From positions 1-28,755 of IMG/VR virus record IMGVR_UViG_3300046328_000332: a stretch of DNA of 28,755 bases. One strand, given 5' to 3'. Made by a program: the position numbers and the translations under genes. Origin of the DNA: a virus. The notes beneath the pieces are model-generated. The model worked only from the letters and a program-made list of their open reading frames with translations. It was not told the origin of the DNA and searched no databases. How positions within the stretch are numbered: the stretch's first letter is position 1; each line of letters opens with the position of its first letter. Below are positions 9,681 through 26,936 of the stretch, piece by piece.

Positions 9681-12600
9681 AGTAAATACCCAATCTTTAC
9701 TCGAAGATTGTTTGAGCTGTCATAAACCCGAATCACGTTAGTCTGCATTTCAACTCGCCCAACGGAAGACCCTGGATTCATCGCAGTCGAGAGCAGACCG
9801 ACATTCAACGACCCAATCAAGGCTGCAGGGATCGCCGCAGCAGCAATGTAGGTAGCTGCGTTACCGCTGGTAATCTGGTTGATCAGGCCCATCGACCCTC
9901 CCCCCAAACCGGCGAAGCTGACCGCGCCGCCACCTCCACCGCTCAGAGCGCCATTCGCTGCGATAGAGATATTCGAGTTGATAAGACCCGGTGCAGCGTT
10001 TGATGTGTTGGCTCCGTAGGTTGCGTTCAACTCCCCGGTATAGGCGTTTCGGTCTAGGTCTTGCACCCACGAGGTAAATGTGGTGCCGGTGTCATCCGCC
10101 GCCCGCCTTCTCCATGTCTTTTCCTGCTGGTAGGCGTACTGGTAGCCCGGATAGCCTCCGCCGCCCTGCGTAAACTGTTTGATGGTTTCCAGGGTCAGCC
10201 AATACCCATCAGAGTCTGACAGGCCGATTGCGGCAGCGTGCTTAAACTCACGGGTTGTTCCCACAGAGTACCAAACGAAATCTCGGTTAGTTTCACGCTC
10301 GGCGTTAATGTCCACGACGGGGAGCGTGGTGACCTGACCACCACCGCCACCCTGCAGGGTACCGTTAGCGTTGATAGTCACATTGGAGTTGAAAATGCCC
10401 GCTGGCTGCGCAGAGATGTTGGCCCAATTCAGGGGTACGCCAGAGCTGAAGCGCACGTTGCCGGCGCTGTCCTGGATCGTGATGCTTCGCCCTACCAGGT
10501 TGCCGGCAGCGTCCATCGTGAGCGTGCCGCTCCCAATGTTCAACGAACCAGCGGTGATCGCTCCAAGGTTTGCGCTGATCGCCGATAGGCTGCCAACCTT
10601 CAGGCTGCTCAGGTACGGCAGACCCCACACAGTGATGTCGGTGGTTGGGTTGTAGATGCCGTTGATCTGGAAGACGGCTTCGCCTGCTGTGAAGCTGGGT
10701 ACCGTGGCACCCCACACCTCCGCGCCACCCCATGTGTTCGTACTGGGGAACGTGCTGGAGCCGCTGGTGTTGAAGGTGGTGGGTGTACCAGCCAAGGGGT
10801 TTGATGTCGATTTAGCGTAGGCGATACGAGCTGAAGCTCCTGCGCTGGCTGCACTGCCGTCTGCGCCGTCTGCGCCGTTCGCGCCTGCATAGCCGATCGC
10901 GCTGATCGATGCGGTTGTCCAATCCACTGAGCTGCTGGAAACCGTCAAGGTGTCGACGAGCTTGACCGTGGCCTGCCACAAGGTGAAGCCGGTGCTGGGG
11001 GATGCTCCAGCGCTTGTGCTCCAACCGCTGGGAACTGCAGCCGTGAAGGTGCTGGTCGCCCACTGGTAGGTGTTGCTGCCGCTGATCGTCGGAATCGTCG
11101 CGGCCCACTGAAACACCTGAGCCAAGGCGAATCGTGCTCCGTTCGCACCTGTGGCGCCTGCGCCGCCAGCAGTACCGTTTGCACCGTTCGCGCTGAGCGC
11201 TGAGACCGTGACGCCAGTCGTCCAGTCAACAGTGCTGCTGGTCGTTGTCGCGGCGGCGCTGATGGACTTCTGAGCAACCCAAAGCAGGACCCCCGGAGTA
11301 CCAGGATTCGCAGGAAGCCCGGTCTGCCATCCGTTGGTACCTGTGTACGATGCGTTGGCTGCAGTAGCCCAGGTGAAGGTCGAGGACGCTGTGGGGTTGC
11401 TGGGTTGAACCGTCGACCACTGGTACATGTAGACCGTGGCAACGCTGGTGCCAGATGCACCAACTGACCCTGCGCCCCCTGCGCCAGCCTTGCTGCGGCT
11501 GATGCTGTAGACCTTGTCGATCGTGACACCGGAATAGATCGCCCGCAAGGTTGCGGTACCCGTGTCGGCAGACGTGCCCGTCAGGCTGTAGACGCCTGCG
11601 GAGTTGATCGTCAATCCGCTGATGCCTGAGCTGGATTGAACGCTGTAGGTAACCGATGCACCAGTGACATCGGTAATGCCGTTGAACACCTTGAAGATGC
11701 CGCCAGCGCCGCTGTAGTCGCCGCCGCTGCCGTCATTGATGGTGGCGACTGAGTATGAGTCGTTGGTCAGGTAGCCAATGATCGGGGTCACGCCGTTCGT
11801 ACCGGATGTTCCATTGGCGCCTGGAGCCCCGTCCTGCGCGACCTTCACCGGACTGGCCCACGTACCCGCAGTCACTGCCGAGCTGGGCGTACTGGTGATG
11901 AATAGAAACGTGGTCGCCCATGTGGGTGTGGTGCTGCTGGTGGGGCGACTGCGAGTCCAACCAGCAGGCGGGACAAGGGTGTTCGTCGAGAACGTGTAGC
12001 TGCCACCAGTCGGTGTTGCGGGGGCTGACGCCGCCTGCTGGAATATCTCGATGGTCAGTGCAACCTGGCCGTCCTGAGCGATGTCAGTAACGGTCACAGG
12101 CACAGACATGACTGCAGTGCCGGTGCTCAGGTTGCCGCTGGCATCAACGTGCCGAACGCGCAGGGTGTAGGTACCTACAGCACTGACCACCTTGGAGTAG
12201 CGGTTGGCTGAGCCTGTCCACTCGGGAGCTGCGCTGGCCCAATCAGTGCCACCAATCCTAGCTTGCGTCTCAGCGTAGTCAAGGTCGTTGCAGGCATCCC
12301 AGGACCAGGTAATGATGCCCTTTGAGACCGTAGCAGCAATGTTGGCTACGTCACTCGGTGGTGCTGTCTTGCCAACTACAAGGTGCGAAGTGAACACCGG
12401 GTTGCTCCTCACACCGATGGAATTCACCACGACCGCACGGACAGTGATCCTGGTGCCCTCCAGAACACCGTTCAGGTAGGTGCTGGTTTCATCGGGCAGT
12501 ACAGAGATAGTGTTCCAGGCTGTGATCCCTACAACCTGCCATGAGACCTCGATACGACCACCAGGGACGACGTAGGCTGAAGTGACTGGCGCCCATGTGA

Positions 12601-14746
12601 CCCTGACACGAGGAACAATCGTTCCGTCTCCAAGCCTCATCAGGTGCGGCGTGCCGCTCTCAGTAGCCAGGGTGCGAATCTCAGCGACGATGTTCGGGTT
12701 CGGCAGATCGGTGTTCGGTGTCGGATCAGCCAGCACCGCGTCCGACTGGTCGTAGGCCGCAGCGCTGTCTTCCTGCAGAGTTAGATTGACCGCAGAGTTG
12801 ATCCCAAATTGCCAATCTGTGACACGGAAGTATTTGTTCGTGAAGCCGTACTCCGCACTGGTGACTCGCACTCGCTCACCAACACGCAGGACCCAGGCAT
12901 TCATCTTGGCTGGGTACTGGATGATCAAGCCGTCACGGTTGCGCTCGGTGAAGATGCGCGCCAGGTTACGCGCTCTGGCTTCCGAGTCAGTGTAGGGGAA
13001 GGTGAAGTTGCTCCACAACTCACGCCCACCGTCCGCTGCCAGGAACGTGGAGTTCTGGTACGGCACCATGTCGCTTGGTGACGTGCGACCGTAGGCAAGG
13101 TAGCTTGCGTGCGCGCCATTGAACAGGCTGTCCATACCTGCGCCAGCCTGAGCGATCGAGATTTGACCGTCGAGATCGTCGTCGGTCAGGTCCATCGCTG
13201 AGGTGGTCCAGGTGCCTGGTGCGATGAGCCACTCACCGCCGTACATCACGTAGCCAGCCATTGACTCGGCAAGCTCTTCAAGCACGGCCTCAGGACCGTC
13301 GTTCGTCGTAAAGGCGCCGTTGCATGTGTAGAGCGGCTCGGTGCGCGTGACAGTGCTGCCAGATGGTGTCAGTGAGCTGAATGTCGTCGACACATCACAG
13401 GCGTTGGCCGCAGCAATCACGTAGGCGTTGTTGATGTCGGTCGAGACAACCTCGAAGCCCCAGGGGGCCATCAAGAAGTCTCGGATGATCAGGGCGTTGT
13501 TATTGCTGTAGGCGGTTAAACCTGTTCGTGGATCGAAGACCTTGCGCCCGCTGATCTCAAACGCCATCTGCGGTGGCCCGCCCTGGAATCGCTGCTCCTC
13601 AAGGTCCAGCGTCACCACAACGTAGGCGCAGCCACGCAGGCGGTGATCGGCAGTCCACTTGTCGGGAAACATGCCGCTCAAAACCGTATCAACCGTCTGA
13701 TCAGTTCCGCCGAGATGTTTCAGCACTCTGATGCTGGAAAGTGACCCGTTGGTCGTGTATGAGATGGTTGCGGGTAGGCTGCCAGTGTTGGTCAGAGTGA
13801 AGCCCCCACCAGTCAAGGTGTAGGGGCTGTCTACCCAACCAGCGTTGTCTCCATCTACGAGAGAATTGGCGCTACGGCCAGAAGACAGCACACTAAGGAT
13901 GGGTGTGGCGGACGTGAACGAAGCGCCTGCGGCCAGGTTGATGTCGCGATTACCGTCGACCTTCTTCGTGAACTCATTGCCAAGCTGAATCGCGGTAGCG
14001 CTGCTAACAAGCGTTTCAAGTCCTGGTGCCGCGATCGTGAGGGTCTGCCCCGCTGCGGTGATGCCTACAGTGACCCTGTAGCGCTTGCTGTCGCCGCTGA
14101 AGGACACCTCGTCGCCTGCCAGGATTGTTCCTGTGCCGGCTGCAACCGGGATCGACGTGGAACCGATAGGCAACGTAGACGACGTTGTGTAGTCTTTGCC
14201 GGTACCAGCAGATGTAGAAACGACCCAGCCATTAGCGTCAAGGGTGCCAATACGAACGCCGTCAATCAGCACATCGTGAATGGCCTCAACCTCGTGAGAG
14301 GCAAGGTGGATCACGAGGTGTTTGTAAGCGTCGGGCTTGGTGTAGGGGGTCCCGTCAGACTTGGTGCTTGGCTTATCGCTCGTGAAGATCGCAACGATGT
14401 CGCCACCGGCAATGCAGCGACCGTAGACAACACGCCAAGGTGGGTCAGGCTGCAGCACGGTCACAGCACGGTCGGTAAGGTTTGAGTTGTACTCTCTGCG
14501 CGCACGCTCAGACTCGCGCCGGGCCTTGCGCCGAGCCGATGAGGCGCCATAGACGTTCAGAGCCACGACTGCCAGTGTTAGGCCGTAAGCAGCAAAAAAG
14601 GCGCTCAAAGCGACAACGCTAGCAGCACCTACAGAAACACCAACGGCGCTCGCGAGGAACAGGATTCCCGATACCGGATCAGCGTAAGCTGGTGTGGCTG
14701 TCAGGCCAAGAGCCAGCAATGTGGTGGCGGCAAGAAGTTTCAGCAT
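9677..14746 (-). CDS. Central tail tip / host-specificity protein (lambda J-like)
   Basis: The start chosen is ATG 14746, giving 1689 residues; the frame is open upstream but that part lies within the DUF6950 gene. Order of parts: a signal-peptide-like N-terminus (LLAATTLLALGLTATPAYAD) and a second hydrophobic region to about residue 70; a tail-hub region (about 85-680, including PDPPWRVVYGRCIAGGDIVA); fibronectin-III-like repeats (about 680-890); then about 100-residue beta modules separated by collagen-like Gly-x-y linkers (about 890-1300); and a C-terminal fiber region with two short NSNxxIxANGxLxGGGGG repeats, ending VRVKIGYLL-like. Lambda J-type proteins form the tail tip and bind the receptor, usually through the C-terminus. 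The position after the DUF6950 gene matches the K-J order of lambda-like tails. Confidence 0.9.
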   Translation of the reverse strand: MLKLLAATTLLALGLTATPAYADPVSGILFLASAVGVSVGAASVVALSAFFAAYGLTLAVVALNVYGASSARRKARRESERARREYNSNLTDRAVTVLQPDPPWRVVYGRCIAGGDIVAIFTSDKPSTKSDGTPYTKPDAYKHLVIHLASHEVEAIHDVLIDGVRIGTLDANGWVVSTSAGTGKDYTTSSTLPIGSTSIPVAAGTGTILAGDEVSFSGDSKRYRVTVGITAAGQTLTIAAPGLETLVSSATAIQLGNEFTKKVDGNRDINLAAGASFTSATPILSVLSSGRSANSLVDGDNAGWVDSPYTLTGGGFTLTNTGSLPATISYTTNGSLSSIRVLKHLGGTDQTVDTVLSGMFPDKWTADHRLRGCAYVVVTLDLEEQRFQGGPPQMAFEISGRKVFDPRTGLTAYSNNNALIIRDFLMAPWGFEVVSTDINNAYVIAAANACDVSTTFSSLTPSGSTVTRTEPLYTCNGAFTTNDGPEAVLEELAESMAGYVMYGGEWLIAPGTWTTSAMDLTDDDLDGQISIAQAGAGMDSLFNGAHASYLAYGRTSPSDMVPYQNSTFLAADGGRELWSNFTFPYTDSEARARNLARIFTERNRDGLIIQYPAKMNAWVLRVGERVRVTSAEYGFTNKYFRVTDWQFGINSAVNLTLQEDSAAAYDQSDAVLADPTPNTDLPNPNIVAEIRTLATESGTPHLMRLGDGTIVPRVRVTWAPVTSAYVVPGGRIEVSWQVVGITAWNTISVLPDETSTYLNGVLEGTRITVRAVVVNSIGVRSNPVFTSHLVVGKTAPPSDVANIAATVSKGIITWSWDACNDLDYAETQARIGGTDWASAAPEWTGSANRYSKVVSAVGTYTLRVRHVDASGNLSTGTAVMSVPVTVTDIAQDGQVALTIEIFQQAASAPATPTGGSYTFSTNTLVPPAGWTRSRPTSSTTPTWATTFLFITSTPSSAVTAGTWASPVKVAQDGAPGANGTSGTNGVTPIIGYLTNDSYSVATINDGSGGDYSGAGGIFKVFNGITDVTGASVTYSVQSSSGISGLTINSAGVYSLTGTSADTGTATLRAIYSGVTIDKVYSISRSKAGAGGAGSVGASGTSVATVYMYQWSTVQPSNPTASSTFTWATAANASYTGTNGWQTGLPANPGTPGVLLWVAQKSISAAATTTSSTVDWTTGVTVSALSANGANGTAGGAGATGANGARFALAQVFQWAATIPTISGSNTYQWATSTFTAAVPSGWSTSAGASPSTGFTLWQATVKLVDTLTVSSSSVDWTTASISAIGYAGANGADGADGSAASAGASARIAYAKSTSNPLAGTPTTFNTSGSSTFPSTNTWGGAEVWGATVPSFTAGEAVFQINGIYNPTTDITVWGLPYLSSLKVGSLSAISANLGAITAGSLNIGSGTLTMDAAGNLVGRSITIQDSAGNVRFSSGVPLNWANISAQPAGIFNSNVTINANGTLQGGGGGQVTTLPVVDINAERETNRDFVWYSVGTTREFKHAAAIGLSDSDGYWLTLETIKQFTQGGGGYPGYQYAYQQEKTWRRRAADDTGTTFTSWVQDLDRNAYTGELNATYGANTSNAAPGLINSNISIAANGALSGGGGGAVSFAGLGGGSMGLINQITSGNAATYIAAAAIPAALIGSLNVGLLSTAMNPGSSVGRVEMQTNVIRVYDSSNNLRVKIGYLL

Positions 14747-15150
14747 CGCATACCTTTTAGATGCCAAGCGTAGTCGGCCTTGTCCATTTGCACCTTGACG
14801 ATGCTTCCTGTGTCGCTGACGACTGCAGCATGTTGACCGACGCAGATTCCGAGGCATCCCCCAGTCGGTAGAGGAATGTGAACTACATCCCCTACCTGCG
14901 CCAGAGTCGCATTGACAGGCTCCTGCCCTAACTGCTTCTTGGTGACTGCGATTAGGTTGCCGCCCATCGAAGCAATCAGCCTCCTGGCCTCTCTCATGTT
15001 GGTTGTTTCTGCAAGGCCCTGCATGAAGTCGCAGCTTGTCATACGAAGAACCCACTTCGATACGAAGTGGCAGCAGTTTGCAGTGCGCCAATCAAAACGA
15101 CCGCGACCGTAGTCGCGTATGTAGTCTTCGAGTTGCACTGCGAGATTCAT
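14740..15150 (-). CDS. DUF6950 family tail protein (NlpC/P60-like, lambda K position)
   Basis: The 136-residue product contains RFDWRTANCCHFVSKWVLRM (Cys26, Cys27), REARRLIASMGGNLIA and VGDVVHIPLPTGGCLGICVG followed by QHAAVV (His107). The DC/CC-x-F-x-A/S-x-W start and the late GDVV...LGIC...H layout match my memory of DUF6950, a compact phage family related to NlpC/P60 peptidases. It would correspond to the tip-assembly or peptidoglycan-cleaving protein that usually precedes the central tip gene; Cys and His are in place for catalysis, but activity is not proven. The start is ATG 15150 (TGATG overlap) behind a strong AGGAGG ribosome site. Its stop overlaps the tip protein start by a few bases. 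Confidence 0.8.
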   Translation of the reverse strand: MNLAVQLEDYIRDYGRGRFDWRTANCCHFVSKWVLRMTSCDFMQGLAETTNMREARRLIASMGGNLIAVTKKQLGQEPVNATLAQVGDVVHIPLPTGGCLGICVGQHAAVVSDTGSIVKVQMDKADYAWHLKGMRC

Positions 15151-15755
15151 CAAACCTCCTGGAACTTCTTCGAGAGCCAGCGCGTGGGCTGCTCGATCAG
15201 GTTCTGCAGGTACTCAAACCCGCGATCGCCTGGGTAGCGTTGCTGGTGCTGAGTGTTCGAGAGTCGACGACCCTGGTAGTTGCGAGCCCGAGCCATGCCA
15301 GCACGAGAGCAAACCATCTCGATCTTGCCGCTCACGTTGCCACCGTCTTTGCCAGGGCTCTCGCGGGTGATCTGAACCTTGTCCATGTAACCCGCCCAAC
15401 GCTTCACAGGGGCTCCATCGGGCTGGAAGCGCTCGTTCATCAATTGGAGGTACGTCCTCACCGCCCTGCCCCGGTAGTTGTCCACGTTGCCAAGCACTGA
15501 CGCGAGCATCGCCTGGTTGACCACGCTGTAGCTGAGCGTGACCTTCTCAGCCGAGTTGGACTCGCTCTCACTCAGGGGGCTGACACCCACAAGGTTGTAG
15601 CCGGCCAGGTAGTCGTTGCCACCAATTGAGAGCTGGATAGGTGAGTTCGTGTAGTAGATCGTGCCAGTACCAAAGTCCATCTGCACAAGCCAAACAACGC
15701 CCTTGACGGGCGCTATGATTCGGGCTGCAGCGGCTGTGTCAAGGGCAATCGTCAC
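15150..15755 (-). CDS. Minor tail protein, DUF2163/lambda L-like hub adaptor
   Basis: The 201-residue product has the features of the siphophage hub family: an N-terminal region with VVWLVQMDFGTGTIYYTNSP and NDYLAGYNLVGVSPLSESES, the latter matching the conserved G-x-S-x-x-x-E segment, then VRTYLQLMNERFQPDG and RWAGYMDKVQIT. The C-terminal part (SRAGMARARNYQGRRLSNTQ and DRGFEYLQNL) is the typical end of these proteins, which link the distal tail ring to the tip. The gene is coupled on both sides (ATGA, TGATG). Naming by family is from memory; a structural role is certain from context. Confidence 0.8.
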   Translation of the reverse strand: MTIALDTAAAARIIAPVKGVVWLVQMDFGTGTIYYTNSPIQLSIGGNDYLAGYNLVGVSPLSESESNSAEKVTLSYSVVNQAMLASVLGNVDNYRGRAVRTYLQLMNERFQPDGAPVKRWAGYMDKVQITRESPGKDGGNVSGKIEMVCSRAGMARARNYQGRRLSNTQHQQRYPGDRGFEYLQNLIEQPTRWLSKKFQEV

Positions 15756-16366
15756 TGGAATGCTTCGAGCAAATCGAGCGCAAATCCGCTCTGCAGCATG
15801 TTACCAGCTTGGTATTCCCATTTTGTTGTTTTGCCAATCTGGCGGGCGTAAAAAACTGGGCGATCGAGCGTGATTACCGCACCCGTCGAGTACGAGATGC
15901 GCAGCGCCGGCTCGAAGGTCACGGTGACCGCTCCAGCTACGGCAGTAACGTCGCTCATAGACTTCACGAGCTGACTGGTGCCAACCCCTGTGCCGATCTG
16001 CAACCAGTCGCCCTTCAGCAGCGTGCCAGATGCGCCGGAGAGGTTGATCGCCGTAGACCCTGCTGGAGCACCCGAGCTAAGCGTTGGTGTGCCCCGCATG
16101 GTGCCTCTCGGGAGCACGCGCACGGGGTCCCAAACCGCCAGATGGTTGATGCCTCTGCGAAGCTGCAGAACGATTACCTCCCACTCGGATGCCTGTGCAA
16201 GGTTCATGTCAGGCATGGCCGACAAGCTGGTGCGCCAGCGCGGGGGACCAAAGAGGCGGATCGCTTCAGCACCAGTCGGGTCGCTGACTTCGACCATGTC
16301 GTAGCTGATCTGCTCCATTGCGAAGCTGCCCATAAGGATGCTTGGGCTCATGGTGATGATGCTCAT
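15752..16366 (-). CDS. Minor tail protein, probable distal tail ring component
   Basis: The 204-residue protein lies directly after the tape measure gene, the usual place of the distal tail protein (lambda M or Dit position). Its N-terminal half contains FGPPRWRTSLSAMPDMNLAQ and WEVIVLQLRRGINHLAVWDP, a pattern seen in siphophage minor tail proteins of this position, and a beta-barrel-like insert follows (GDWLQIGTGVGTSQLVKSMS). No enzymatic motif is seen. Start and stop both overlap neighbours (ATGA). A specific family name cannot be given with certainty. Confidence 0.75.
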   Translation of the reverse strand: MSIITMSPSILMGSFAMEQISYDMVEVSDPTGAEAIRLFGPPRWRTSLSAMPDMNLAQASEWEVIVLQLRRGINHLAVWDPVRVLPRGTMRGTPTLSSGAPAGSTAINLSGASGTLLKGDWLQIGTGVGTSQLVKSMSDVTAVAGAVTVTFEPALRISYSTGAVITLDRPVFYARQIGKTTKWEYQAGNMLQSGFALDLLEAFQ

Positions 16367-19300
16367 GCGATGACTCCCGTGTCCTTCAGGTGCTGCAGCA
16401 TCTGCTTCTGTCCTTGCGCCACGCTGGCCTGCACAAGCTGTGCAACCTGGGCTTGGTCTGTGCGGCTGTCGATGTGGATCGTGGGTGAGTAGCTCAGGCT
16501 CACCGACGCCTTGCTCGAAGAGCCATCACCGTTGAGAGTCACGGGCACGGTGCGACCATCCTGTAGCGGGATGTTCGCCTCGGGCAGGCTGCCTTCGCCA
16601 TGTACGGAGTACTCGGGGCCGTGCGTAATGCCCCCCTTCGCGTACCGGCGCAGCGGCATCGGGCCTTGCGGCGTCATGATGCCGCCCTTGGCGAACCCGA
16701 AGAACGGGAGGACATCGCTGAAGCTGAAGCCGCCACCATCAGCGCTGAATACATCCCCCAAGCTGCCTAGGCCGAAGCCGCCACCGCTCAAAGAGCTGCT
16801 GAGCAAGAACTGCGAGGCAGCAGCAGAAGCGGCGTAGAGCGCGGCAGTCAGGGCAGTAGCAGCGGTCGTCTGAACAACAGTTGCTGCGGTGATGCTAGTG
16901 GTAGCAGCGAGATCGGCGGCATCTGCAGCAGCTTTCGCTGTGTCAGCCACGGCGCTACCGCCCAGGCCGAGCGAGCCCGCGAGTTTGCCGATCTGCTGCT
17001 TGATGACGACCTTGGTGAGATCAGCAGCAACTGCGCGAGCCATGCCACCAAGTTCTAGCTTGCCCGTTGCGGCTGCGTTGGTTAGACCGCCTGCCAGGCT
17101 GTCCGTCACCGACTTGAGGCTGTTCTCGACGATAGCTGCGCTGGTCAGAGCCGAGTCGGTGTACTGCTTCCAGAACTTGTCCCAGCCGGCCTCTGCCGTT
17201 TCAGACTTGACTTGGAGACTCGCAGCCTTGCTGCCAGCCAGCTTCGACTGCGCCGACGCCTGAGCTTCAACCACTGCCAGCACGCCCTGCTCGGCAACGA
17301 CACGCTTCTTCGCCTCATCAACCAACGACTGAGCGTCGAGCTTAGCTTCACCAGTTGTAGCGGCAACCTGTTTCTGCAGGTCCACAACCTGCCGCTGCGC
17401 AAGTGCAATGTCCTGGGTCTTCTTGCTGATCAGGCCACGGTATGAGTCCTCGACCTTCAGCTCCGCTTCAAGGGATGCCGCATCGCCCGTGGAGAGGGTC
17501 TTGGTGCTGTACTTCTTGTAGATGTCCTGAATCTGTTTCTTGTCAGCATCAGCGAGCTTGCGCAGATCGTCCTTGTCTGAGCCGCCCTGATCAAGGGCCA
17601 GGTTCCCGGACTTGATACCTGCGAGCGTCTTGCTCTGTTCGAGCTTTGCTTTCCTCTCGTCGAACTCAGCAACGAGCTTGGTCCGCTCCTTCTGTGTGTT
17701 AGTCAGATCGGCAGGGGTGTACTTCGACCGATTGATAGCGTCGAAGGACGTAAGTGCTGAGCTGCGCTGACTCTCAAGGTCTCGCAGTTCCCTCTTGACG
17801 CGCAGCTCGGTGACCAGCGCTGACATGTAGGGGCCAAAGCGATCGGTACCGTAGGTAGCCTCATCGATCTCCTTCGCGAAGTCCATGCGCTGCTTGTCCA
17901 CCACCATCTTCTGCTTGATGGCCTCGATGTCCTTGTTGCTCTCCGCAATGTTTTCGTTGCGAGCCCTGGATGCAGCGGCACGCTCAGCAGCCTTGTCTGG
18001 TATGACAATGTTCTTGCCGTACTCGTTCAAAGTTGCCTTACGGGCGGTTAGCAGTTTCTCGAAGTCACGCTGAGCTACGTTCGCATCAGCGTCTGAGATA
18101 GAAAGCGACTCTTTGTCGAACTTGATCAACTTGTCAGCAGACAGGGTAGGCCTGAAATCTTTAATCCTCTGATTGAACTCTCGTGCCTGGCTTACGTTAG
18201 CCTGGAGTGTGTTCTGCGCAGCCTTCAGGTTCTTCTGTGCTGCGTCCGTCTCATACTTCTCCTGAGCTTCCAAAGCCGTGTTGTAAAAGCCGCGAAGCCT
18301 TTCAACTTCAGCATTGGCAGCGGTAGCCGTACCTGTGCTGAACTCAGGTCCAAGGTTTGCATCGTATTGTTTTTGGCCCAGAGCCTTTTCTTCCGCTAGG
18401 GCCAGCGCCTGAGCCAACTCGTTTGTCTTGCTGCGCAGCGTGGCACCTTGTGCTGATCCGCCTGCGCGCTTGTTGGCCTCTTCAAGGGTCAAACCTTGCA
18501 ACAGCAAAAGGTTACGTTCAGCCAGGAATACGTTCTCTTCCTTCAGCCTGGAGATGCTGGCGTCAAGATCGCGATTCTGGTTCTTCAGGGACTCGTTGAA
18601 AGCATTCTGCGCTTCAGTGGCTGCATCAGTGTGCTTGGAGAACAGCGCCCACTCAAGCACCAGGGGGATGATGATCGAGAGTCCCAGCGTCGCGCCAACA
18701 GTGAGTGCCTTCCAGGAGATTGCAAGGGCGCCAACGCTAAGCGCTGTTGCGTTCAAAGCGATGGCCTGAGTAGCCAGAGCTGAAACCATCAGAGCAGACG
18801 CAACCCGATACGACGCATACGCTGCAACCGCATATAGCACAGCCTTGCCGTTCTCAACGAACAGGGTAGCAACAGCGCCGATGTTGCTGCCAAGGGCACT
18901 AAGTCCCTGCCGGAACTCGGGCGACGCGACGACGTTTCGCAAGCTGTCTGAGAACAGGTTGACGGAGGTACCAGCGTCGTCAAAAGCTGCGGATGCTGCG
19001 ATCTGGAACTCGGAAAACAACTGCTTGATCTTGCCGCCCGTCGACTCCTTCAGTGCTGTGTCAATAGCAGAAGTGAAACCTTTCGCCTCGTTTGTGATCT
19101 TGCTCAGGCTGGCTCGGAAAAACTCGAAGTCGGTCAAAACCGAGTTGGCCGCTTTCGCGCCGCGCTCGTTGAAGATGTCGTTCAAGAATGTGAGCTTGGT
19201 CTGCTCATTCAGTCCATCCGTCTTGGACTTCAAATCCCCGATAACATCGAGGAAGTCGCGCATCTTTCCGTTGGAGTCAAAGACCTTCAGGCCAAGCAGA

Positions 19301-21600
19301 TTGATGGCCGTCTTTGCCTTCTCCGTTGGTGTAGCCAACTCCACCATCATGTTACGGAAAGCGGTACCCGCTGAAGACCCCTCGATGTTCCGCTTAGCCA
19401 TCGTTGCCAGCACGGCGGCAGTCTGCTCAAGGCTGACGTGGTACTTGTCCGAGACGGTCGAGGCCTGTCGCATCGCCTCCGTCATACCGGACACGCTGGT
19501 GTTCGAGATCGCCGCAGCTTTGGCGAACACGTCAGACACACGTCCAAGGTCGCCAACTGAGAGTCCGAAAGCTGACATAACGCCGGTAGCTGACAGTGCC
19601 GCATCCCGAAGGCTCAACTCGCCTGCGGTCGCAAGCTGCAAAATCACCGGCAAAGCTGCCAATGAGTCGCGTGTATCAAGGCCGTTCTGTGCCAGTGCTC
19701 GCAGACCTTCCGCCGCCTCAAGCGGTGGGACCATTGAGCCTCGAACCGCATTGCCGAAGGCTGTCATCGACAGCGCAGCTTCGCCCGACAGGGCCGAGAC
19801 GAATGCGAGCTGGTAGCCAACGTCCTTGCCGACAACAACAATGCTCCTGAGGGACGCGCCGATCGCAGCGGCAGCGACCAGAGGCACCAGGCTGCCGTAG
19901 GTGGTCCAGAGCGCCCCCATTGAGCCGGCCAGGCCACGGGCAGCACTGTGAGCTTCGCGCATCACTGCGTTCAACTCTCGGTGCGCCCCCGCAGACCTGG
20001 TCGATGCAGATGTCAGCGAGTTGTTGTTCCGGCCTAGAAGCTCAGCCTGCTCCTGCATTCTTTGCAGATCAGGAACACTTTCAACCGCAGATCGTCCGAA
20101 CCTACGTATCGCCAACTCAGCGCGCCCATCCTCGATCAGAAACTGCGCCTGCTTGACCTTCTTGATCTGCGACTCCAACTTTGCAAGTTCGCCGAGTTGG
20201 GGCGCCGCGAACCCAAGATTAGTCACCGCCGCCTTCTCATCTCGCCTGATGCTGCGCAACTGAGACTGGCGCTGACCAGTCTGGTTAAGCGTGTCGAGTC
20301 CTTCAGTGGCCTTCAATAGGTCGGCAGCTTGTTTGCGAGCTTCCCGGACCTTTCTGAAGTCGGATGTCCGCTGGCCTGACTGGTTGAGCGCGTCAAGGCC
20401 TTCCGTCGCCTTCAGGAGATCGGTTGCTTGCTTGCGCGCTTCCTTCACCTTCTTGAAGTCAGACGCTCGCTGACCACTCTGATTCAACGTGTCGAGTCCC
20501 TCTGTGGCCTTCAGGAGATCAGCCACTTGCTTGCGAGCGTCTCGGACCTTCTTGAAGTCGGACGAGCGCTGGCCTGACTGGTTCAGTGCCTCTAGGCCTT
20601 CCGTCGCCTTTAGAAGGGCGTCAGCCTGCTTGCGGGCTTCTCGCACCTTCTTAAAGTCGGACGAGCGCTGACCTGACTGGTTCAGTACGTCAAGGCCTTC
20701 ATTCGCCTTCAGCAGATCAGTCGCTTGCTTGCGCGCTTCTCGAACCTTCTTGAAGTCCGACGAGCGTTGACCGCGCTGATTGAGCAGCTCTGCGTCATCT
20801 TCAATCTTGGTCCTTCTCCTCTTCTGGATGTCGGCCCTGACTAGCTGTGGGTTCTCAAGGGTCTCAGTAACTCCCAGGCTGAAACCGTCTGCATCCTTAG
20901 CTGAGATCGACTTCTTGGCCCGCAAAACGCTGGTCGTGGTCTGCCCCGCGACACCTGACTTCTTGACCGCACTGGCGATCGCGAGGGCCGCTTGCGTCAG
21001 CTCGTTCACTGCCGGCGCCAGCGCACGCTGGATCACCGTGTTCACATCGGGTCCCAGACCCGCTGCAGCGGCCACAGGCGGCGCTGCAACGCCGCTGGCA
21101 CCCGCCAGGCGCACGACGCCGCCCGCGAGGCCTAGATCGACCGCTGCCTTGACCTGGGCAGTGAGCGAAGCACTGTTGATACCGACGCGGTGTTCAACGG
21201 CAAGGGTCGCGGTGACATCTGTGCTGATGTCGGCGATCAGTTTTGCGCGATCGTAGTTGAGCCGGCGCTGCTTGTCGTTGAAGATCGGGTCGAGCGTTGA
21301 GTTCATCGAGCCCCGGAAGCCAGCGGCATTCCAGGACAAGGTGCGGCCCCTCTTTGCGAAGGCGTTGTCGAGGGCGATCCCAAGGGCTTGAGTGACCTCA
21401 TCACCCAGGGCTTGGGTGTTGACCTTGACCGTAAACGCTCGTTTCTGGTTGAGGTACCGCTGAATGTCCTGCCTGACCGAATCCATGTTGACGTTGATCA
21501 ACAGGTTGTGCGGCTGAGACTGCATCTCAGCGCGCAGCTTGCGCAGGCTCTCGAACGCCGCGCCGGTATCGATGCCAACCAGTAAATTCGCAGTGGTCAT
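16363..21600 (-). CDS. Tail tape measure protein
   Basis: The 1745-residue protein determines tail length and is ejected at infection. Visible parts: an N-terminal helical region; a block of five 33-residue tandem repeats plus a degenerate sixth (residues about 273-470, each LNQSGQRSSDFKKVREARKQ-like); the tape-measure core typical of the TP901/PhageMin_Tail family (about 590-830, including AEGLRALAQNGLDTRDSLAA and SSAGTAFRNMMVELATPTEK); strongly hydrophobic spans (about 560-590 and 915-990) that could insert in the host membrane; a long charged helical stretch to about 1480; and a C-terminal Gly-rich domain with FAKGGIMTPQGPMPLRRYAK. The length predicts a tail of roughly 250 nm at 1.5 A per residue. 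Start overlaps the chaperone T stop (ATGA). Confidence 0.95.
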   Translation of the reverse strand: MTTANLLVGIDTGAAFESLRKLRAEMQSQPHNLLINVNMDSVRQDIQRYLNQKRAFTVKVNTQALGDEVTQALGIALDNAFAKRGRTLSWNAAGFRGSMNSTLDPIFNDKQRRLNYDRAKLIADISTDVTATLAVEHRVGINSASLTAQVKAAVDLGLAGGVVRLAGASGVAAPPVAAAAGLGPDVNTVIQRALAPAVNELTQAALAIASAVKKSGVAGQTTTSVLRAKKSISAKDADGFSLGVTETLENPQLVRADIQKRRRTKIEDDAELLNQRGQRSSDFKKVREARKQATDLLKANEGLDVLNQSGQRSSDFKKVREARKQADALLKATEGLEALNQSGQRSSDFKKVRDARKQVADLLKATEGLDTLNQSGQRASDFKKVKEARKQATDLLKATEGLDALNQSGQRTSDFRKVREARKQAADLLKATEGLDTLNQTGQRQSQLRSIRRDEKAAVTNLGFAAPQLGELAKLESQIKKVKQAQFLIEDGRAELAIRRFGRSAVESVPDLQRMQEQAELLGRNNNSLTSASTRSAGAHRELNAVMREAHSAARGLAGSMGALWTTYGSLVPLVAAAAIGASLRSIVVVGKDVGYQLAFVSALSGEAALSMTAFGNAVRGSMVPPLEAAEGLRALAQNGLDTRDSLAALPVILQLATAGELSLRDAALSATGVMSAFGLSVGDLGRVSDVFAKAAAISNTSVSGMTEAMRQASTVSDKYHVSLEQTAAVLATMAKRNIEGSSAGTAFRNMMVELATPTEKAKTAINLLGLKVFDSNGKMRDFLDVIGDLKSKTDGLNEQTKLTFLNDIFNERGAKAANSVLTDFEFFRASLSKITNEAKGFTSAIDTALKESTGGKIKQLFSEFQIAASAAFDDAGTSVNLFSDSLRNVVASPEFRQGLSALGSNIGAVATLFVENGKAVLYAVAAYASYRVASALMVSALATQAIALNATALSVGALAISWKALTVGATLGLSIIIPLVLEWALFSKHTDAATEAQNAFNESLKNQNRDLDASISRLKEENVFLAERNLLLLQGLTLEEANKRAGGSAQGATLRSKTNELAQALALAEEKALGQKQYDANLGPEFSTGTATAANAEVERLRGFYNTALEAQEKYETDAAQKNLKAAQNTLQANVSQAREFNQRIKDFRPTLSADKLIKFDKESLSISDADANVAQRDFEKLLTARKATLNEYGKNIVIPDKAAERAAASRARNENIAESNKDIEAIKQKMVVDKQRMDFAKEIDEATYGTDRFGPYMSALVTELRVKRELRDLESQRSSALTSFDAINRSKYTPADLTNTQKERTKLVAEFDERKAKLEQSKTLAGIKSGNLALDQGGSDKDDLRKLADADKKQIQDIYKKYSTKTLSTGDAASLEAELKVEDSYRGLISKKTQDIALAQRQVVDLQKQVAATTGEAKLDAQSLVDEAKKRVVAEQGVLAVVEAQASAQSKLAGSKAASLQVKSETAEAGWDKFWKQYTDSALTSAAIVENSLKSVTDSLAGGLTNAAATGKLELGGMARAVAADLTKVVIKQQIGKLAGSLGLGGSAVADTAKAAADAADLAATTSITAATVVQTTAATALTAALYAASAAASQFLLSSSLSGGGFGLGSLGDVFSADGGGFSFSDVLPFFGFAKGGIMTPQGPMPLRRYAKGGITHGPEYSVHGEGSLPEANIPLQDGRTVPVTLNGDGSSSKASVSLSYSPTIHIDSRTDQAQVAQLVQASVAQGQKQMLQHLKDTGVIA
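20290..20784 (-). repeat. Five 99-bp tandem repeats inside the tape measure gene
   Basis: Copies begin at 20784, 20685, 20586, 20487 and 20388 on the minus strand, each encoding 33 residues with core GQRSSDFKKVREARKQ and KATEGLD; a degenerate sixth unit begins at 20289. Copies differ mainly at silent and conservative positions, so the array is old enough to have drifted but keeps the exact 99-base period. Confidence 0.92.
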
Positions 21601-22336
21601 TTGGTCTTCAGGTTAGCTCGGATGATCTTGGTCTCAACTGCATCAAGTCCTTGAATAAGCCTCAAGTACTTGAGCTTGGTATCACTGTCCTCAATCCCCA
21701 GCAACCCCAGGTAGGCTGCGACCTCGGAAACCTGCAGGGGGTTTGGCCCCACCTGGTTCCACGTACGAGAAGCGCTCAAGGATCGAAAGGCATCGTAGTA
21801 ACGACGGTCTTCGTCTTTGAGCGCTGGCCTTGTCAACTCTGCCGGGTGGACGTTGCCGTCCGACCTCATCACCTTGAAGAGTTCCGTGAACTCCTTGGTA
21901 CCGTATTTCAGGTACCACTCAAGGTGACCTCTTAATCGTTTCCCGCCGCCTTCTCCGCCTTGACCTTGTAGGCGTCCATCTGGTCACTCAGACCGGCGAC
22001 GTGCTTGCGAAAGTCTTTCACTGCCAAGAGCTTCTTGGCCTTCTCAGTCGAGTAGTCGCCCATGTCTTCGCCCTTGAAGCTGAGCTTCTTCCAACCAAGC
22101 AGGATGGTCTCGGCCATCACGTCGACCATGATCTGGTCCGAGACGTTGGCCGCGTTGTCGTCGGCGGCGTCCAGCTCGACGCGGCGAGCCTCGACGGCCT
22201 TGGTGATGGCCTTGGCGTAGGCGCGGTTGCCGGCGCGAGCAACGGTGATCTCTGCGCCCTTGCCGAGCTTGAAGATCGTGCCGTTGTTTTCGAGGTTCTC
22301 GTCGGTGGCGAAGGCGGTGAATATGTCAAAGGTCAT
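21597..22336 (-). CDS. Tail assembly chaperone G-T fusion made by -1 frameshift
   Basis: Ribosomes reading the chaperone G frame would slip back one base at GGGAAAC (21944 to 21938, minus strand) and continue CGA TTA AGA into a frame that stays open to the TGA at 21597-21599. The product would have 133 residues from G and 113 from T, 246 in total. The T part reads RLRGHLEWYLKYGTKEFTEL onward and has no good independent start before MRSDGN, which lies mid-domain. This is the lambda G/G-T arrangement, found in most long-tailed phages between tail tube and tape measure genes. G and G-T coat the tape measure and recruit tube subunits but are not in the virion. The T stop overlaps the tape measure start. 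Confidence 0.88.
21932..22336 (-). CDS. Tail assembly chaperone (lambda G-like)
   Basis: This is the unshifted product, 134 residues ending AEKAAGND. It is helical and charged, with a short beta-rich start (MTFDIFTAFATDENLENNGT) and GWKKLSFKGEDMGDYSTEKA in the middle. The position between tube and tape measure genes and the slippery heptamer at its very end identify it as the G-type chaperone. Most ribosomes would make this form and a few per cent the longer G-T form in known systems. The ATG at 22336 has GGAAAC upstream. A 111-base gap with no recognised element other than a weak hairpin precedes it. Confidence 0.88.
   Translation of the reverse strand: MTFDIFTAFATDENLENNGTIFKLGKGAEITVARAGNRAYAKAITKAVEARRVELDAADDNAANVSDQIMVDVMAETILLGWKKLSFKGEDMGDYSTEKAKKLLAVKDFRKHVAGLSDQMDAYKVKAEKAAGND
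21938..21944 (-). promoter_or_regulatory. -1 ribosomal frameshift slippery site GGGAAAC
   Basis: In the G frame the codons are GCG GGA AAC GAT TAA, so the heptamer G GGA AAC fits the X XXY YYZ rule exactly, two codons before the stop. Lambda uses the close relative GGGAAAG. A 7-bp perfect hairpin (TGGTACC/GGTACCA, 21896-21917) starts 20 bases downstream in the transcript, farther than the usual 5-9 bases. Confidence 0.88.
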
Positions 22337-22447: not shown

Positions 22448-23731
22448 TTAGACCGTGTCAACAGCGTAGACGGTTGAGTCGGCTTCGTCTTTCATAGAAT
22501 TCATCAGTGAATTCAATGAGGAAGCCTTGCCAGCCCAATTAGAGCCGGCACCTGGGACGTAATACTGAGATAGCAAAACAGTTTTACCGGCAAGTTTTGC
22601 AAAAAGTGGAGAGCCGGAGTCGCCACCTAGCCCCGTTGATTGCCATCCATTAAGTGCCCTGCCCGAGTAGATTACAACGCCATCTGCATCGCAGATAAGC
22701 CCGTTGCTACCTACTTTGCGTATCCATTCTTCCGATGGCACTAAAGATCGCACTGTAATGGTAAAGACCAAGCTGCCGTGTGAATATTTACCCAGGTTTG
22801 TCTCAAAGGTCTCCGTTTTAGTTAAAGAGTCAGGTGGAAGTATTGTAACTCTACTTAGAAACGGGATACGCGCCGCGAGTATAGACGCAGGAGTTACATT
22901 GGTAATCGGAGCGCTGAGATAACCTATTGCGCCGTCCGACACGCCCGGTACCGGTTGAACTCTCAAAACTGTGGCCGTTTGCAGAACATTGTCCATGCTC
23001 AAGAAACCAATAGTACCATACGCCTGCCAATGATTTGCCATAAGAATATACCTAGGCGATATAAGGGTCGCGGGAGCACCCTGGCCGAGGAACGAGAATG
23101 GACCGAGGTCGACCACTGAGTGCAGCGGGTTAGTAGTATTTCTTCTGGCCAGGTTCCAGGTGGAGGGTTCATAACTCTGCCACTGTGAAGACTCTTCAAA
23201 AACACGTGCGTTGCCGATGTTTCTTGCTGTTGAACCTAGCGTAGCCTGGACTACGTCGGCCATCGCTCTCAGCGTCGTACCTGCTTTAAACACCAAGGGC
23301 TCATATAAAACTTTAGAGCCTATAAAGTTAGCGGTGGCAGGAACAGTTTCGCTCCCGCCCGCGTGAGTCATAGTCAAATTGAAGTTAAATATAACGGGAA
23401 CATTAGAGGCTATCAGCTCCGCCGAAGCCGCGGGGGTGCAGTCTCTTCCGTTTGGCGTTATGCTGTAAACAATACGAGAGTCAGAAGACACCGCGCTCAA
23501 AAGCACTTGTGGCTCTGAACCCCTTAAAATATGACCGCCACCCGCTAAAAACTGATAGCTTGTACCTACATTATAGGTTTCAAGGTCAGCGTCTAAAGCG
23601 GTCCCCGGCACCACTGCGGTGTTTATGGGGTAGCTAACGTCTGGAGTCGAAACAAAGGGCGCAAATGTGGCCCCTACGGAAGTGCCTTGAAGTTGGTTTT
23701 CAGAAAGATTAGCGTTTATGACTATAGGCAT
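22448..23731 (-). CDS. Virion-module protein with trypsin-like serine protease domain
   Basis: The start chosen is ATG 23731, two bases after the upstream stop; the frame is open 23 codons further but that overlaps the neighbour. The 427-residue product has a beta-rich N-terminal region (about 1-210, starting MPIVINANLSENQLQGTSVG) and a chymotrypsin-fold protease domain (about 215-400). The complete triad is visible: His234 in SPRYILMANHW, Asp266 in GVSDGAIGYL, and Ser372 in GLGGDSGSPLF. The His, Asp and Ser contexts match the usual TAAHC, DIAL and GDSGSP motifs. It would cleave peptide bonds; the target is unknown and could be the neighbouring fiber-like protein, itself or a host surface protein. 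The gene lies among tail genes but is more AT-rich than they are, suggesting later acquisition. Confidence 0.8.
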   Translation of the reverse strand: MPIVINANLSENQLQGTSVGATFAPFVSTPDVSYPINTAVVPGTALDADLETYNVGTSYQFLAGGGHILRGSEPQVLLSAVSSDSRIVYSITPNGRDCTPAASAELIASNVPVIFNFNLTMTHAGGSETVPATANFIGSKVLYEPLVFKAGTTLRAMADVVQATLGSTARNIGNARVFEESSQWQSYEPSTWNLARRNTTNPLHSVVDLGPFSFLGQGAPATLISPRYILMANHWQAYGTIGFLSMDNVLQTATVLRVQPVPGVSDGAIGYLSAPITNVTPASILAARIPFLSRVTILPPDSLTKTETFETNLGKYSHGSLVFTITVRSLVPSEEWIRKVGSNGLICDADGVVIYSGRALNGWQSTGLGGDSGSPLFAKLAGKTVLLSQYYVPGAGSNWAGKASSLNSLMNSMKDEADSTVYAVDTV

Positions 23732-23733
23732 GC

Positions 23734-25173
23734 TTACGTGCCGTCTGTACTGCTTTGGTTGCCAAATCCTAGAACTGAGGCCCTGATTACTGCGCGCCAT
23801 TTGATGTTGGTGGCCGCGATCCCCGTCACCGAGATGTTAAGACCGCCAGTCACAACACTCAGAGTGGGGGCCGGAGGCGCAAATCCTGAATCTGTAAAGT
23901 CTGAGATACCTGTGGGCGTCTGGACTGAGCCCTTCAAAACCCATCCAGCAGACGTGCTACGCATCACCAAGCGGCGGCGATAGAGGGCGGTTAAACTGGA
24001 TGAGCTGCTGTCCATCATTGCGGCTACGTCCACATCTAGAATCATTAAACCCCTGAAAACGGTCACTCTCCAAGTGTCGTTCAAGCCTTCTGTCAAAAGT
24101 GTGGGAGTAGCATCAGTGGTGCGGGCGTAAAGTAGCCCGGTAAGGTCTCCGTGATCGCTTGCCGCCAGGCCTCGCATTGAAAGCCAGATAGAGTTCTGCA
24201 TAGACACATCACTGTTGCCGATACATACAGAGTTATTGCCATATGACGAGGTGCTGTCGAAAATGGCTACTGAGTAACTACCAGGGATCGTTACTGGGGG
24301 CAAACTGTCTATATTAATACTATTTCCGGCGATTAAAATATTATTTTTAATATCTGTGCCGCCGTCATTCGGAAACTCGGTCGGCGTAAAAATTCTTCGC
24401 CCTATAAGAGTGTTTCCGTACGCGACTACTCCAGATCCGGAAGCGTCAGCTGCGCTGTATCCGCCCAGCACACTGTTGTGCGCCGCACTCGGGATCAAAG
24501 CGGGGTCGGCAATATGCGTTGCAAAATTTATAGGCCTTGCGCCTCCGACAATACCGTTCATTAAAACCAGCGATTTAGTGTCAGAAGCAAGCGCGACTTC
24601 ATTTGAAAAGCCGGCAACAGCCTGCAGGTCATCCAGCGTGCCCACTCGCGGAACAAGGTTCGCCGGAATAACTAAATTGCCGGACACGTCGGTGGTGAGA
24701 GCCGCGTCCAACGTGGTGAGGTTGGCTGTGAGGCCGGAACTGTAGACAACCGCAGCACTCCAGACCGATGCACCTGTCTTCGTGTAATAGCTGCCGGCAG
24801 CAAAGTCGACAGCCAGGTCTCCTATTGCCCCTGTTCCGCCCGCTGGAGCACCAGTGGTCCGCAAAACTGTGTTGCCAGCAGCAGCCAAAACAACAGAGAC
24901 TCCAGTTGGCAAAAGGACTGTCCGAGCATGCTGCAGGCTGATGCTCCAAACTCGCTGAACTCCAGCGGGTTCGCTCGCGACGGTGATAGGTTGACCGTTG
25001 AACCAAATAGCCGAAGCCGCTCCGATATTTGCAACTTCCCTGGTCACACCGGAGTTCAAGTCTGCCAGCGTCTCGAAGTGCATGTGCAGGCCCGAGGACT
25101 TCCAAATCTCTGTCTTGTTGACCAGAGGGATTTGGTCATTGGAAGTACCGAGGGGCGAGGTTACGTTTGGCAT
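23734..25173 (-). CDS. Fiber- or decoration-like structural protein (479 aa)
   Basis: The 479-residue protein is rich in Ser, Gly, Ala, Thr and Asn with few Lys or Cys. The N-terminus (MPNVTSPLGTSNDQIPLVNK, then SGLHMHFETLADLNSGVTRE) could be a virion attachment domain. The middle (about 210-345) has short repeated turns with Asn/Gly (NSVLGGYSAADASGSGVVAY, NNILIAGNSINI, YGNNSVCIGNSDVSMQNSIW), reminiscent of the left-handed beta-roll of trimeric adhesin heads. The C-terminus (about 430-479) looks Ig-like (LSVVTGGLNISVTGIAATNI). I do not recognise a family. It lies between tail tube and protease genes with a terminator-like hairpin upstream; a tail-tube decoration or side fiber is likely from context only. 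Confidence 0.65.
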   Translation of the reverse strand: MPNVTSPLGTSNDQIPLVNKTEIWKSSGLHMHFETLADLNSGVTREVANIGAASAIWFNGQPITVASEPAGVQRVWSISLQHARTVLLPTGVSVVLAAAGNTVLRTTGAPAGGTGAIGDLAVDFAAGSYYTKTGASVWSAAVVYSSGLTANLTTLDAALTTDVSGNLVIPANLVPRVGTLDDLQAVAGFSNEVALASDTKSLVLMNGIVGGARPINFATHIADPALIPSAAHNSVLGGYSAADASGSGVVAYGNTLIGRRIFTPTEFPNDGGTDIKNNILIAGNSINIDSLPPVTIPGSYSVAIFDSTSSYGNNSVCIGNSDVSMQNSIWLSMRGLAASDHGDLTGLLYARTTDATPTLLTEGLNDTWRVTVFRGLMILDVDVAAMMDSSSSSLTALYRRRLVMRSTSAGWVLKGSVQTPTGISDFTDSGFAPPAPTLSVVTGGLNISVTGIAATNIKWRAVIRASVLGFGNQSSTDGT

Positions 25174-25250: not shown

Positions 25251-26936
25251 TTAGCTGATAGTGAACGACCCGCCCGCGTTGGAGTAGTCCTGGCGGAAGA
25301 ATCGCCAGATAGTGCTGTTGCCGTCCGTGTAGGTCGGCACGACCGCTCCCGTAGGAGTTACGCCTGCACCCGGAGGCGACAAGGTGGGGTCGGGCGAGGC
25401 ACCCGTGTTGTTGCCCGTGAAGCCGGCACCAGACCAGCCACCGTAGCCAACACCGTCGAAGAAGCGCACGCCGGAGACCGAGGGACCGGCGACCACTGCA
25501 ACCCAACCGTAGTTGCCGACACCTGGAGCAACAGTGAAGGTACCGGCCTTGCCGTCGTTCACACTGCCAGTCACGAAGCTCGACAATCCTGCCAGCAAGG
25601 TCGCGGGATTGCTGTATGCGCCAGGCAGAGCCACACCGTAGCGCGGACGAGTGTCAAGAACGGTGATCAACGTACCAGAGTACAGTGCGCCAACGCGATA
25701 GATCGCGACGGTCTTGCCAACGGTCGGAGAGGCGGTGACAGGGTCCACAACGGCTTCCCAGTCAACCGACAGCATCGCGTCCTGATCTTGACCGCCGACT
25801 TGCACCTTGGCAGCCGTGTACTTGATGCGCGGGAAGTGGTAGACGTAGCCGTTGCCTTCCACGTCCAGCAGCGGGATGGTCAGCGAGGTAGCGACGCCAC
25901 TGAGCAGCTTCTGGTACATGATGGAGTCAGCGAAGTAGACCTCCAGCTTGCCCATCGCCTTGAACGTGCCTGCACCGATACCGGCTGCGCCGAACACGCC
26001 AACAGCGTCCTGCATGCGCAGGTTGTTGTCGATCGTGAACTCGCCCGACTTGATGTAGGTCGTGGCCGAGATAGAGGCCCCATTCTCGAAAATGTCAAAC
26101 ACGCCGCGAGTCGCATTGGCGGGCGTGAATACTTGAGACACGTTGGGCGTGCCGTTGCCGGTCGTGCCGCGCAGCGAGAAGCCTTGACCCATGAAGTCGA
26201 ACATGCCAGTGACGATCGAGCCGACCGACAGCTTGACTTCCATCTTCGAGCAGACCATCCCCTTGTACTGGCGGAACTGGTTGATGTCAGCGTGGCCCAC
26301 TTCGAGCGTGTACGACTTCATCGTACTGGCGTTATAGGCACGCGAGCTACCGATCTTGGCACCGGTCAGCATGGTCGTACCGACAAGGGTTGTGTTGATC
26401 GGGGTGATCGCTTCCAGCGTGATCACAGTGGTCGTCGGAGCCACAGTCTTCGACACCTGGAACGCACGGGCAGCGAAGTAGTCCTTGATCACCTGGCTGG
26501 ACGAAGGCACGGGGATGAAGCCGAACCACTGGCCGGGAGCCAGGGTGGCCCAGCTATCGACGCCGGCAGTCGCGGAACCCGCAGTGATGGTGCCAGCGGC
26601 AAAAGTCAGGGCGGGAAGGTTAGCGCTGAGGCCCGACGTACCGTACTCGGTGAAGTCATTCTGAACGACAGCCTGAATGAAGGGGTCGTACTCGCGGTAC
26701 TGGGCTTCAAAGGCGAAGCCACCTGAGGCGCTGGCGCCGACCTGGACGATGTCGGAAGTCTGACGGTCGCTGCGGATGGTCTTCGAGGACTCGTTCTTGA
26801 CTGTGAAGTCGAGCGTCTCGCTCAGCATGTTCAGGTTCGAGCCGTTGCCCGGACGAGGGTCGCCGAAAAAGTTCGGGTAGATGCCCTCCAACTTGTATCC
26901 AAGTTGGCTGCGGTTCGATGAGGCAAGGGTTGGCAT
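25251..26936 (-). CDS. Major tail tube protein with C-terminal extension
   Basis: The 561-residue protein occupies the tail tube position (after the terminator, before the chaperones). Residues about 1-390 match the siphophage tube type (Phage_tube_2-like): an N-terminal MPTLASSNRSQLGYKLEGIY, NESSKTIRSDRQTSDIVQVG with the usual GGFAFE strand, EVGHADINQFRQYKGMVCSK, TGMFDFMGQGFSLRG, and IKSGEFTIDNNLRMQDAVGV before DVEGNGYVYHFPRIKYTAAK. Residues about 415-561 form an added beta-rich, Gly-rich domain (YGWVAVVAGPSVSGVRFFDG, IWRFFRQDYSNAGGSFTI) that would project from the tube, as the extra domains of lambda V do. Start ATG 26936 has AGGA upstream. Confidence 0.88.
   Translation of the reverse strand: MPTLASSNRSQLGYKLEGIYPNFFGDPRPGNGSNLNMLSETLDFTVKNESSKTIRSDRQTSDIVQVGASASGGFAFEAQYREYDPFIQAVVQNDFTEYGTSGLSANLPALTFAAGTITAGSATAGVDSWATLAPGQWFGFIPVPSSSQVIKDYFAARAFQVSKTVAPTTTVITLEAITPINTTLVGTTMLTGAKIGSSRAYNASTMKSYTLEVGHADINQFRQYKGMVCSKMEVKLSVGSIVTGMFDFMGQGFSLRGTTGNGTPNVSQVFTPANATRGVFDIFENGASISATTYIKSGEFTIDNNLRMQDAVGVFGAAGIGAGTFKAMGKLEVYFADSIMYQKLLSGVATSLTIPLLDVEGNGYVYHFPRIKYTAAKVQVGGQDQDAMLSVDWEAVVDPVTASPTVGKTVAIYRVGALYSGTLITVLDTRPRYGVALPGAYSNPATLLAGLSSFVTGSVNDGKAGTFTVAPGVGNYGWVAVVAGPSVSGVRFFDGVGYGGWSGAGFTGNNTGASPDPTLSPPGAGVTPTGAVVPTYTDGNSTIWRFFRQDYSNAGGSFTIS

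Follow-up and report, generated by a model that had tools for sequence, protein, structure and literature searches.

A predicted chymotrypsin-fold serine protease in the tail operon of an IMG/VR virus and its possible role at the host cell surface

The tail operon of the virus recorded as IMGVR_UViG_3300046328_000332 encodes a protein that, by its conserved triad order and its predicted double beta-barrel, belongs to the chymotrypsin-fold proteases (clan PA, S1-like). We propose, with a probability of roughly 55%, that this protease is made together with the tail, is probably borne on the virion, and cuts a host-surface protein at adsorption, its gene occupying a swappable accessory-enzyme slot. 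Hereafter, the window designates the whole stretch of DNA analyzed, i.e., the entire virus record of 28,755 bases.

Results

The protease gene lies on the minus strand at 22448..23731 (ATG at 23731, stop at 22448) and encodes 427 amino acids followed by a stop. An earlier reading made from the letters alone (the sequence-only reading) had the open reading frame right; the minus strand, absent from its statement, was found here. Along this strand, the gene is preceded by a phrog_169 neck-type gene, a phrog_179 tail terminator, the gene of the 561-aa major tail tube protein (25251..26936, minus; Phage_tube_2, E = 3.5e-32), and that of a 479-aa fiber-like protein (23734..25173, minus), and its ATG begins 2 nt past the TAA of the latter. 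It is followed by two tail assembly chaperone frames (21932..22336, minus, phrog_313, E = 1.5e-11; 21597..21872, minus, Phage_TAC_18, E = 8.9e-7), the tape measure gene, a phrog_1302 distal tail protein, and further genes. The 1,745-aa tape measure protein (16363..21600, minus) was assigned by its size, position, and reading, and it gave tblastn matches in the tail loci of relatives. Judged by this gene order, the protease gene sits in an intact-looking tail operon, and its claimed position within the tail block was confirmed, the fiber-like and protease genes lying between the tail tube and chaperone genes.

The three residues proposed from the sequence alone as a catalytic triad were found on the 427-aa translation at their expected positions and in the chymotrypsin order: His234 (codon at 23030..23032, minus), Asp266 (22934..22936, minus), and Ser372 of GGDSGSP (22616..22618, minus). 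The corresponding motifs start at residue 232 (ANHW), 265 (SDGAIGYL), and 369 (GGDSGSP).

As a single query, the window protein gave no match among phages, plasmids, and contigs of IMG/VR or GTDB; its divergence puts it beyond the reach of exact peptide patterns and single-sequence tblastn. Nothing exceeded the thresholds among PHROGs and NCBIfam, with the window protein as sole query, or among PDB sequences, and no Pfam family matched above its cut-off, Peptidase_S6 appearing below threshold only. Relatives were recovered from IMG/VR with a degenerate DNA pattern ([LF]I[ST]PR[HY] then AxH), which returned 68 contigs. A second, GDSG-type motif stands at a suitable distance in 63 of them a truncation of the frame by a contig end accounting for its absence from the others; many of the 63 encode proteins of ~400 aa that, like the window protease, have the histidine near residue 215-235. 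A protease-domain profile of the IMG/VR relatives matched the window protein over residues 216-420 (72.8 bits). Moreover, a full-length profile built from 40 relatives, with the window excluded, scored it at 73.5 bits, while the top score among 2,000 composition shuffles was 7.0; the aligned residues are 190-286 and 363-415. The match of the window protease to this family is more than chance. A GDSGSPLF codon pattern, also tried, was abandoned: of the 5 contigs it returned, two encode the same Deg-like protease, which is membrane-anchored and has no relation to tails.

The triad is conserved by these homologs, as the sequence-only reading implied for a working protease: in a non-redundant set of 106 viral and cellular sequences that includes the window, His234 and Ser372 are present in all 106 and Asp266 in 105. 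In the 41-sequence alignment, no variation is seen at His234, Gly370, Asp371, or Ser372, and very little at Asp266. His234 belonged to the main viral search pattern, while Asp266 belonged to none; the conservation of Asp266 is therefore independent evidence of an active site. The nearest relative of the window protease is L162 (29-31% over the domain), and a quick tree placed it nearest L165, L101, and L162, within an all-viral set (SH-aLRT of 96, with a program warning of long branches).

The fold was approached by profiles and by modeling. Pfam Trypsin is matched by 3 of the 41 family members (best E = 1.4e-5), and L159 passes its cut-off. As relatives pass the PF00089 cut-off and the window protein itself does not, its Trypsin membership is by family only. 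The family profile matched the trypsin structures 4m7g and 5dj7 across the whole domain (E = 0.001). AlphaFold2 (AF2) run on the single sequence gave a pLDDT of 29; with the alignment, block-mean pLDDT reached 75-95 (about residues 191-290) and 80-93 (about residues 371-427), with a pTM of 0.61, the model being unreliable at residues 1-116 and in the loop 293-360. Foldseek retrieved 238 PDB matches to this model at E <= 0.001, and the 50 listed of these 238 are all trypsin-fold proteins or chains containing that domain, including the SPATE SepA. Normalized by target length, the TM-scores of single-domain matches are modest, at about 0.40-0.53. The structure prediction and trypsin-fold search proposed earlier thus returned a double beta-barrel, and profile, PDB-profile, AF2/Foldseek, and conservation evidence agree on a chymotrypsin-fold protease with a conserved triad. 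By family profile, AF2 with alignment, and Foldseek, the domain spans about residues 200-420 (22472..23134, minus). A BFVD fold search with the window model found no phage relative. Six residues before Ser372, the window protein has Thr366 and not Asp, at a position that varies across the family; strict trypsin (Arg/Lys) specificity is therefore not indicated.

Three other assignments were rejected. Peptidase_S6 (IgA1 protease) scored 14.8 to 15.4 bits against a Pfam cut-off of 23.3, and the Peptidase_S74 tailspike chaperone had no Pfam match. A phage head maturation protease was set aside, as Pfam, PHROG, and NCBIfam gave no match to one and the gene belongs to the tail block.

The remainder of the protein, residues 1-199 (23135..23731, minus), is the part that we propose for attachment. 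The sequence-only reading had described a 210-residue beta-rich domain: about 200 residues do precede the protease domain, but they are modeled with low confidence and have no detectable relative. They hold no recognized attachment fold, the first 190 show no similarity to the full-length family profile, and neither a signal peptide nor a lipobox was seen when the N-terminal region was checked by reading. A Big_2 Ig-like domain occurs in the N-terminal part of 9 of the 41 aligned members, and domains of this kind also decorate tail tubes (PMC8718954). An Ig-like N-terminal region was considered for the window protease and dropped, the protein having no similarity there.

The place of the gene was compared across related tail loci. 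In R5C, Pan1, and RpAliso, the tail tube gene adjoins the chaperone gene. Among 80 IMG/VR relatives found via the tail tube protein, the distance from the tube gene to the next recognized gene was measurable in ~60 loci, in most of which the tube and chaperone genes are neighbors; this distance is mostly <350 bases and ~1.3 kb at the largest, compared to 2.9 kb in the window, and the longer slots that were inspected contain unrecognized chaperone frames or small unrelated genes. The slot is empty in L017, whose tail tube is 58% identical to that of the window. In L013, the window's nearest relative (tail tube 71% identical), it measures at least 3.4 kb and includes a 505-aa and a 345-aa protein, both starting with the ~132-aa N-terminal domain of the window's 479-aa protein (46-59% identity over 136 columns). 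The 479-aa protein has no Pfam match, and a search with its N-terminal domain recovered L013 only.

Where the window has its protease, L013 has a gene, cut by the contig end, in which an IGDSITDG motif comes after a beta-rich stretch. This incomplete gene falls below threshold for Lipase_GDSL_2 (E = 0.12); in its relative from phage XAJ2, nearly the whole of Lipase_GDSL_2 is aligned, at 30.1 bits versus a cut-off of 32.9 (E = 8.6e-7). BLASTP detected no similarity of the protease to the L013 slot gene, which is therefore a replacement and not a relative of the protease, and none to the 479-aa neighbor. From these few genomes, the slot looks accessory and swappable.

Tail, fiber, and other virion genes also surround the protease in the wider family, as the sequence-only reading would have it for the window. 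Among 98 neighbor proteins of the viral relatives, the commonest families are tail fiber, minor tail, structural, tail spike, hyaluronidase, and head decoration, in a tally where one protein may match several families and some neighbors are terminase or portal genes. L122 and L098 adjoin tail fiber genes, and L162 adjoins a head-tail adaptor gene. Two prophage-like loci add to this. In L194 (Anabaena lutea FACHB-196), the genes downstream of a major head gene are, in order, a tail-fiber-like gene, the protease gene, a pair of small genes, and the tape measure gene; in L193 (a Puniceicoccaceae MAG), the protease directly precedes the tape measure gene, with a fiber-like gene two positions upstream. 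Both repeat the layout of the window, i.e., a fiber-like gene and then the protease, upstream of the tape measure gene. In L195 and in L206 (Luteolibacter pohnpeiensis KCTC 22041, likewise a prophage-like locus), fiber-like genes precede the protease and, by reading, lysis-cassette-like genes follow it; PHROGs named none of the neighbor genes tested in these two loci.

The rarity of such a gene in isolated phages was borne out, two family members used as tblastn queries having matched one of 50,697 phage records. This sole match, the podovirus MW202510, carries its family gene beside genes annotated as rhamnogalacturonan lyase and FN3. The family is scattered through uncultivated viruses and prophages. 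Its cellular relatives are mostly from Verrucomicrobiota, and also from Kiritimatiellota, Patescibacteria-type groups, and Bacteroidales. Many of them start, by reading, with signal peptides or lipobox motifs, which point to extracellular proteolysis. On these comparisons, the protease domain is common to secreted bacterial proteins and to genes of phage virion blocks. Among L193-L254, a trypsin-like protease that bears the same motif and is a lipoprotein recurs in genomes of Verrucomicrobiota, including bins labeled Akkermansia and Prosthecobacter.

Discussion

We propose that the serine protease is produced together with the tail proteins and that it would be carried on the virion surface, probably via its N-terminal region and/or the upstream fiber-like protein. 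During adsorption, it would cut a protein of the host cell (S-layer, matrix, pilus, or outer membrane), a role parallel to that of the glycan depolymerases that clear capsules. It would fill an accessory-enzyme slot behind the tail tube gene, in which a related virus may place a GDSL-type hydrolase. With no signal peptide and a fiber-like neighbor in the stretch from tube to chaperone genes, the protein is most simply read as a virion-surface enzyme. Among the roles raised by the sequence-only reading (fiber maturation, digestion of a host-surface protein, self-cleavage), digestion of a host-surface protein is favored. Virion enzymes directed at non-polysaccharide coats have a precedent in the PhiNIT1 poly-gamma-glutamate peptidase (PMC5380687).

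The main rival is that the protease processes the virus's own fiber; more broadly, its targets during assembly could be the upstream fiber, the tube extension, or the tape measure protein. Such processing, which we consider unlikely, would fit a gene placed directly between the fiber-like gene and the chaperone and tape measure genes, and the fiber-like genes found just upstream in several relatives. However, processing of the tail tube or tape measure protein is disfavored because L017 lacks the gene, L013 has an unrelated one at its place, and a podovirus carries the family; the first two argue that it is no general need.

Autocatalytic chaperones are known from phage spikes (Peptidase_S74), and the N-terminal region and the protease domain of the window protein form a single chain. 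The protease domain could cleave the N-terminal region to which it is joined, or cut itself a single time, e.g., on assembly, as a self-cleaving structural protein. We regard this as improbable, since Peptidase_S74 is unmatched in the window protein and the triad is kept in cellular relatives devoid of a window-type N-terminal region. Equally improbable to us is a soluble late protein outside the virion, freed at lysis, that would digest host or matrix protein or aid release. Secreted cellular relatives are known, and the genes following the protease in L195 and L206 read as spanin, holin, and endolysin, so that the protease of these two loci may act in the release phase; in the window and in L193 and L194, however, tail morphogenesis genes surround the protease gene, and lysis genes are distant. 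Finally, virion proteins sometimes reuse enzyme folds and the activity of the window protease is a predicted one, but an inactive structural or binding protein retaining the protease fold is very improbable given that even highly divergent viral relatives retain the triad and the Gly-Asp-Ser-Gly motif.

Neither the fold nor the concept of a virion enzyme is new. The window protein resembles the S1 chymotrypsin family (clan PA, PF00089) by its triad order and spacing, its GDSG motif, and its predicted fold, and differs from it by falling below PF00089 detection, by Thr366 at the pocket position, and by its long uncertain loop 293-360. With the trypsin-like proteases that Verrucomicrobiota and other bacteria produce as secreted proteins or lipoproteins (L193-L254), it shares a homologous domain and the same triad, but many of these have signal peptides or lipoboxes and lack a phage-type N-terminal region, and the window protein groups instead with the viral sequences (on long branches). 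Like virion depolymerases and esterases (tailspikes, GDSL/SGNH enzymes), it is encoded among tail and fiber genes, L013 having a GDSL-like gene in the same slot; unlike them, it would cut peptide bonds and not glycans or esters, and its fold is unrelated. A "trypsin-like serine protease" is mentioned in passing for phiM9-type phages (PMC10783043). This is likewise a phage gene with that annotation, the comparison being by annotation only, and the one phage matched by our family in tblastn is a different one. In a literature search that mostly missed paywalled papers, we found no description of such a protease family among the virion genes of uncultivated phages.

A wider reading is put forward tentatively, at slightly under even odds for all its parts taken jointly. 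The window protease would belong to a widespread, unrecognized class of virion-borne protein depolymerases of uncultivated tailed phages, often combined with an Ig-like domain and encoded in a variable enzyme slot. Members of this class would lack a signal peptide, be kin to secreted bacterial proteases, and occupy a slot beside fiber or tail tube genes, where other lineages would place esterases or glycan lyases. Phage entry enzymes have been described mostly as cutters of polysaccharide or peptidoglycan; a conserved protease among virion genes suggests that enzymatic clearance at entry may extend to protein coats. The outcome is a family definable by a motif and a profile, whose window member is left unnamed by standard libraries.

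Other observations on the tail genes

Several features of these loci were noted in passing. The tail tube protein of the window has a C-terminal extension of ~150 aa (25251-25700, minus), missing from the aligned known relatives; it is common to the window and L013 and, by reading, is unlike the usual Ig-like domain. In L013 (L013:4580-7962), the adjacent genes with the common N-terminal ~132-aa domain differ in their C-terminal parts, as do modular fiber or spike proteins. The "hemagglutinin-like protein" of Xanthomonas phage XAJ2 (KU197014.1:4720-6426; L255:4081-5787), whose gene is part of the head block, resembles a GDSL-type hydrolase. At the end of the first chaperone frame of the window, a GGGAAAC heptamer (21944-21938, minus) stands in the right phase, and a -1 slip there would join the two chaperone frames, as in lambda G/GT. 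Lastly, the 1,804-aa open reading frame at 9677-15091 (minus) overlaps, in a different frame, a gene at 14740-15153; the tail-tip protein probably starts further downstream (MLKLLAATT...), and the listed length of 1,804 aa is too long.
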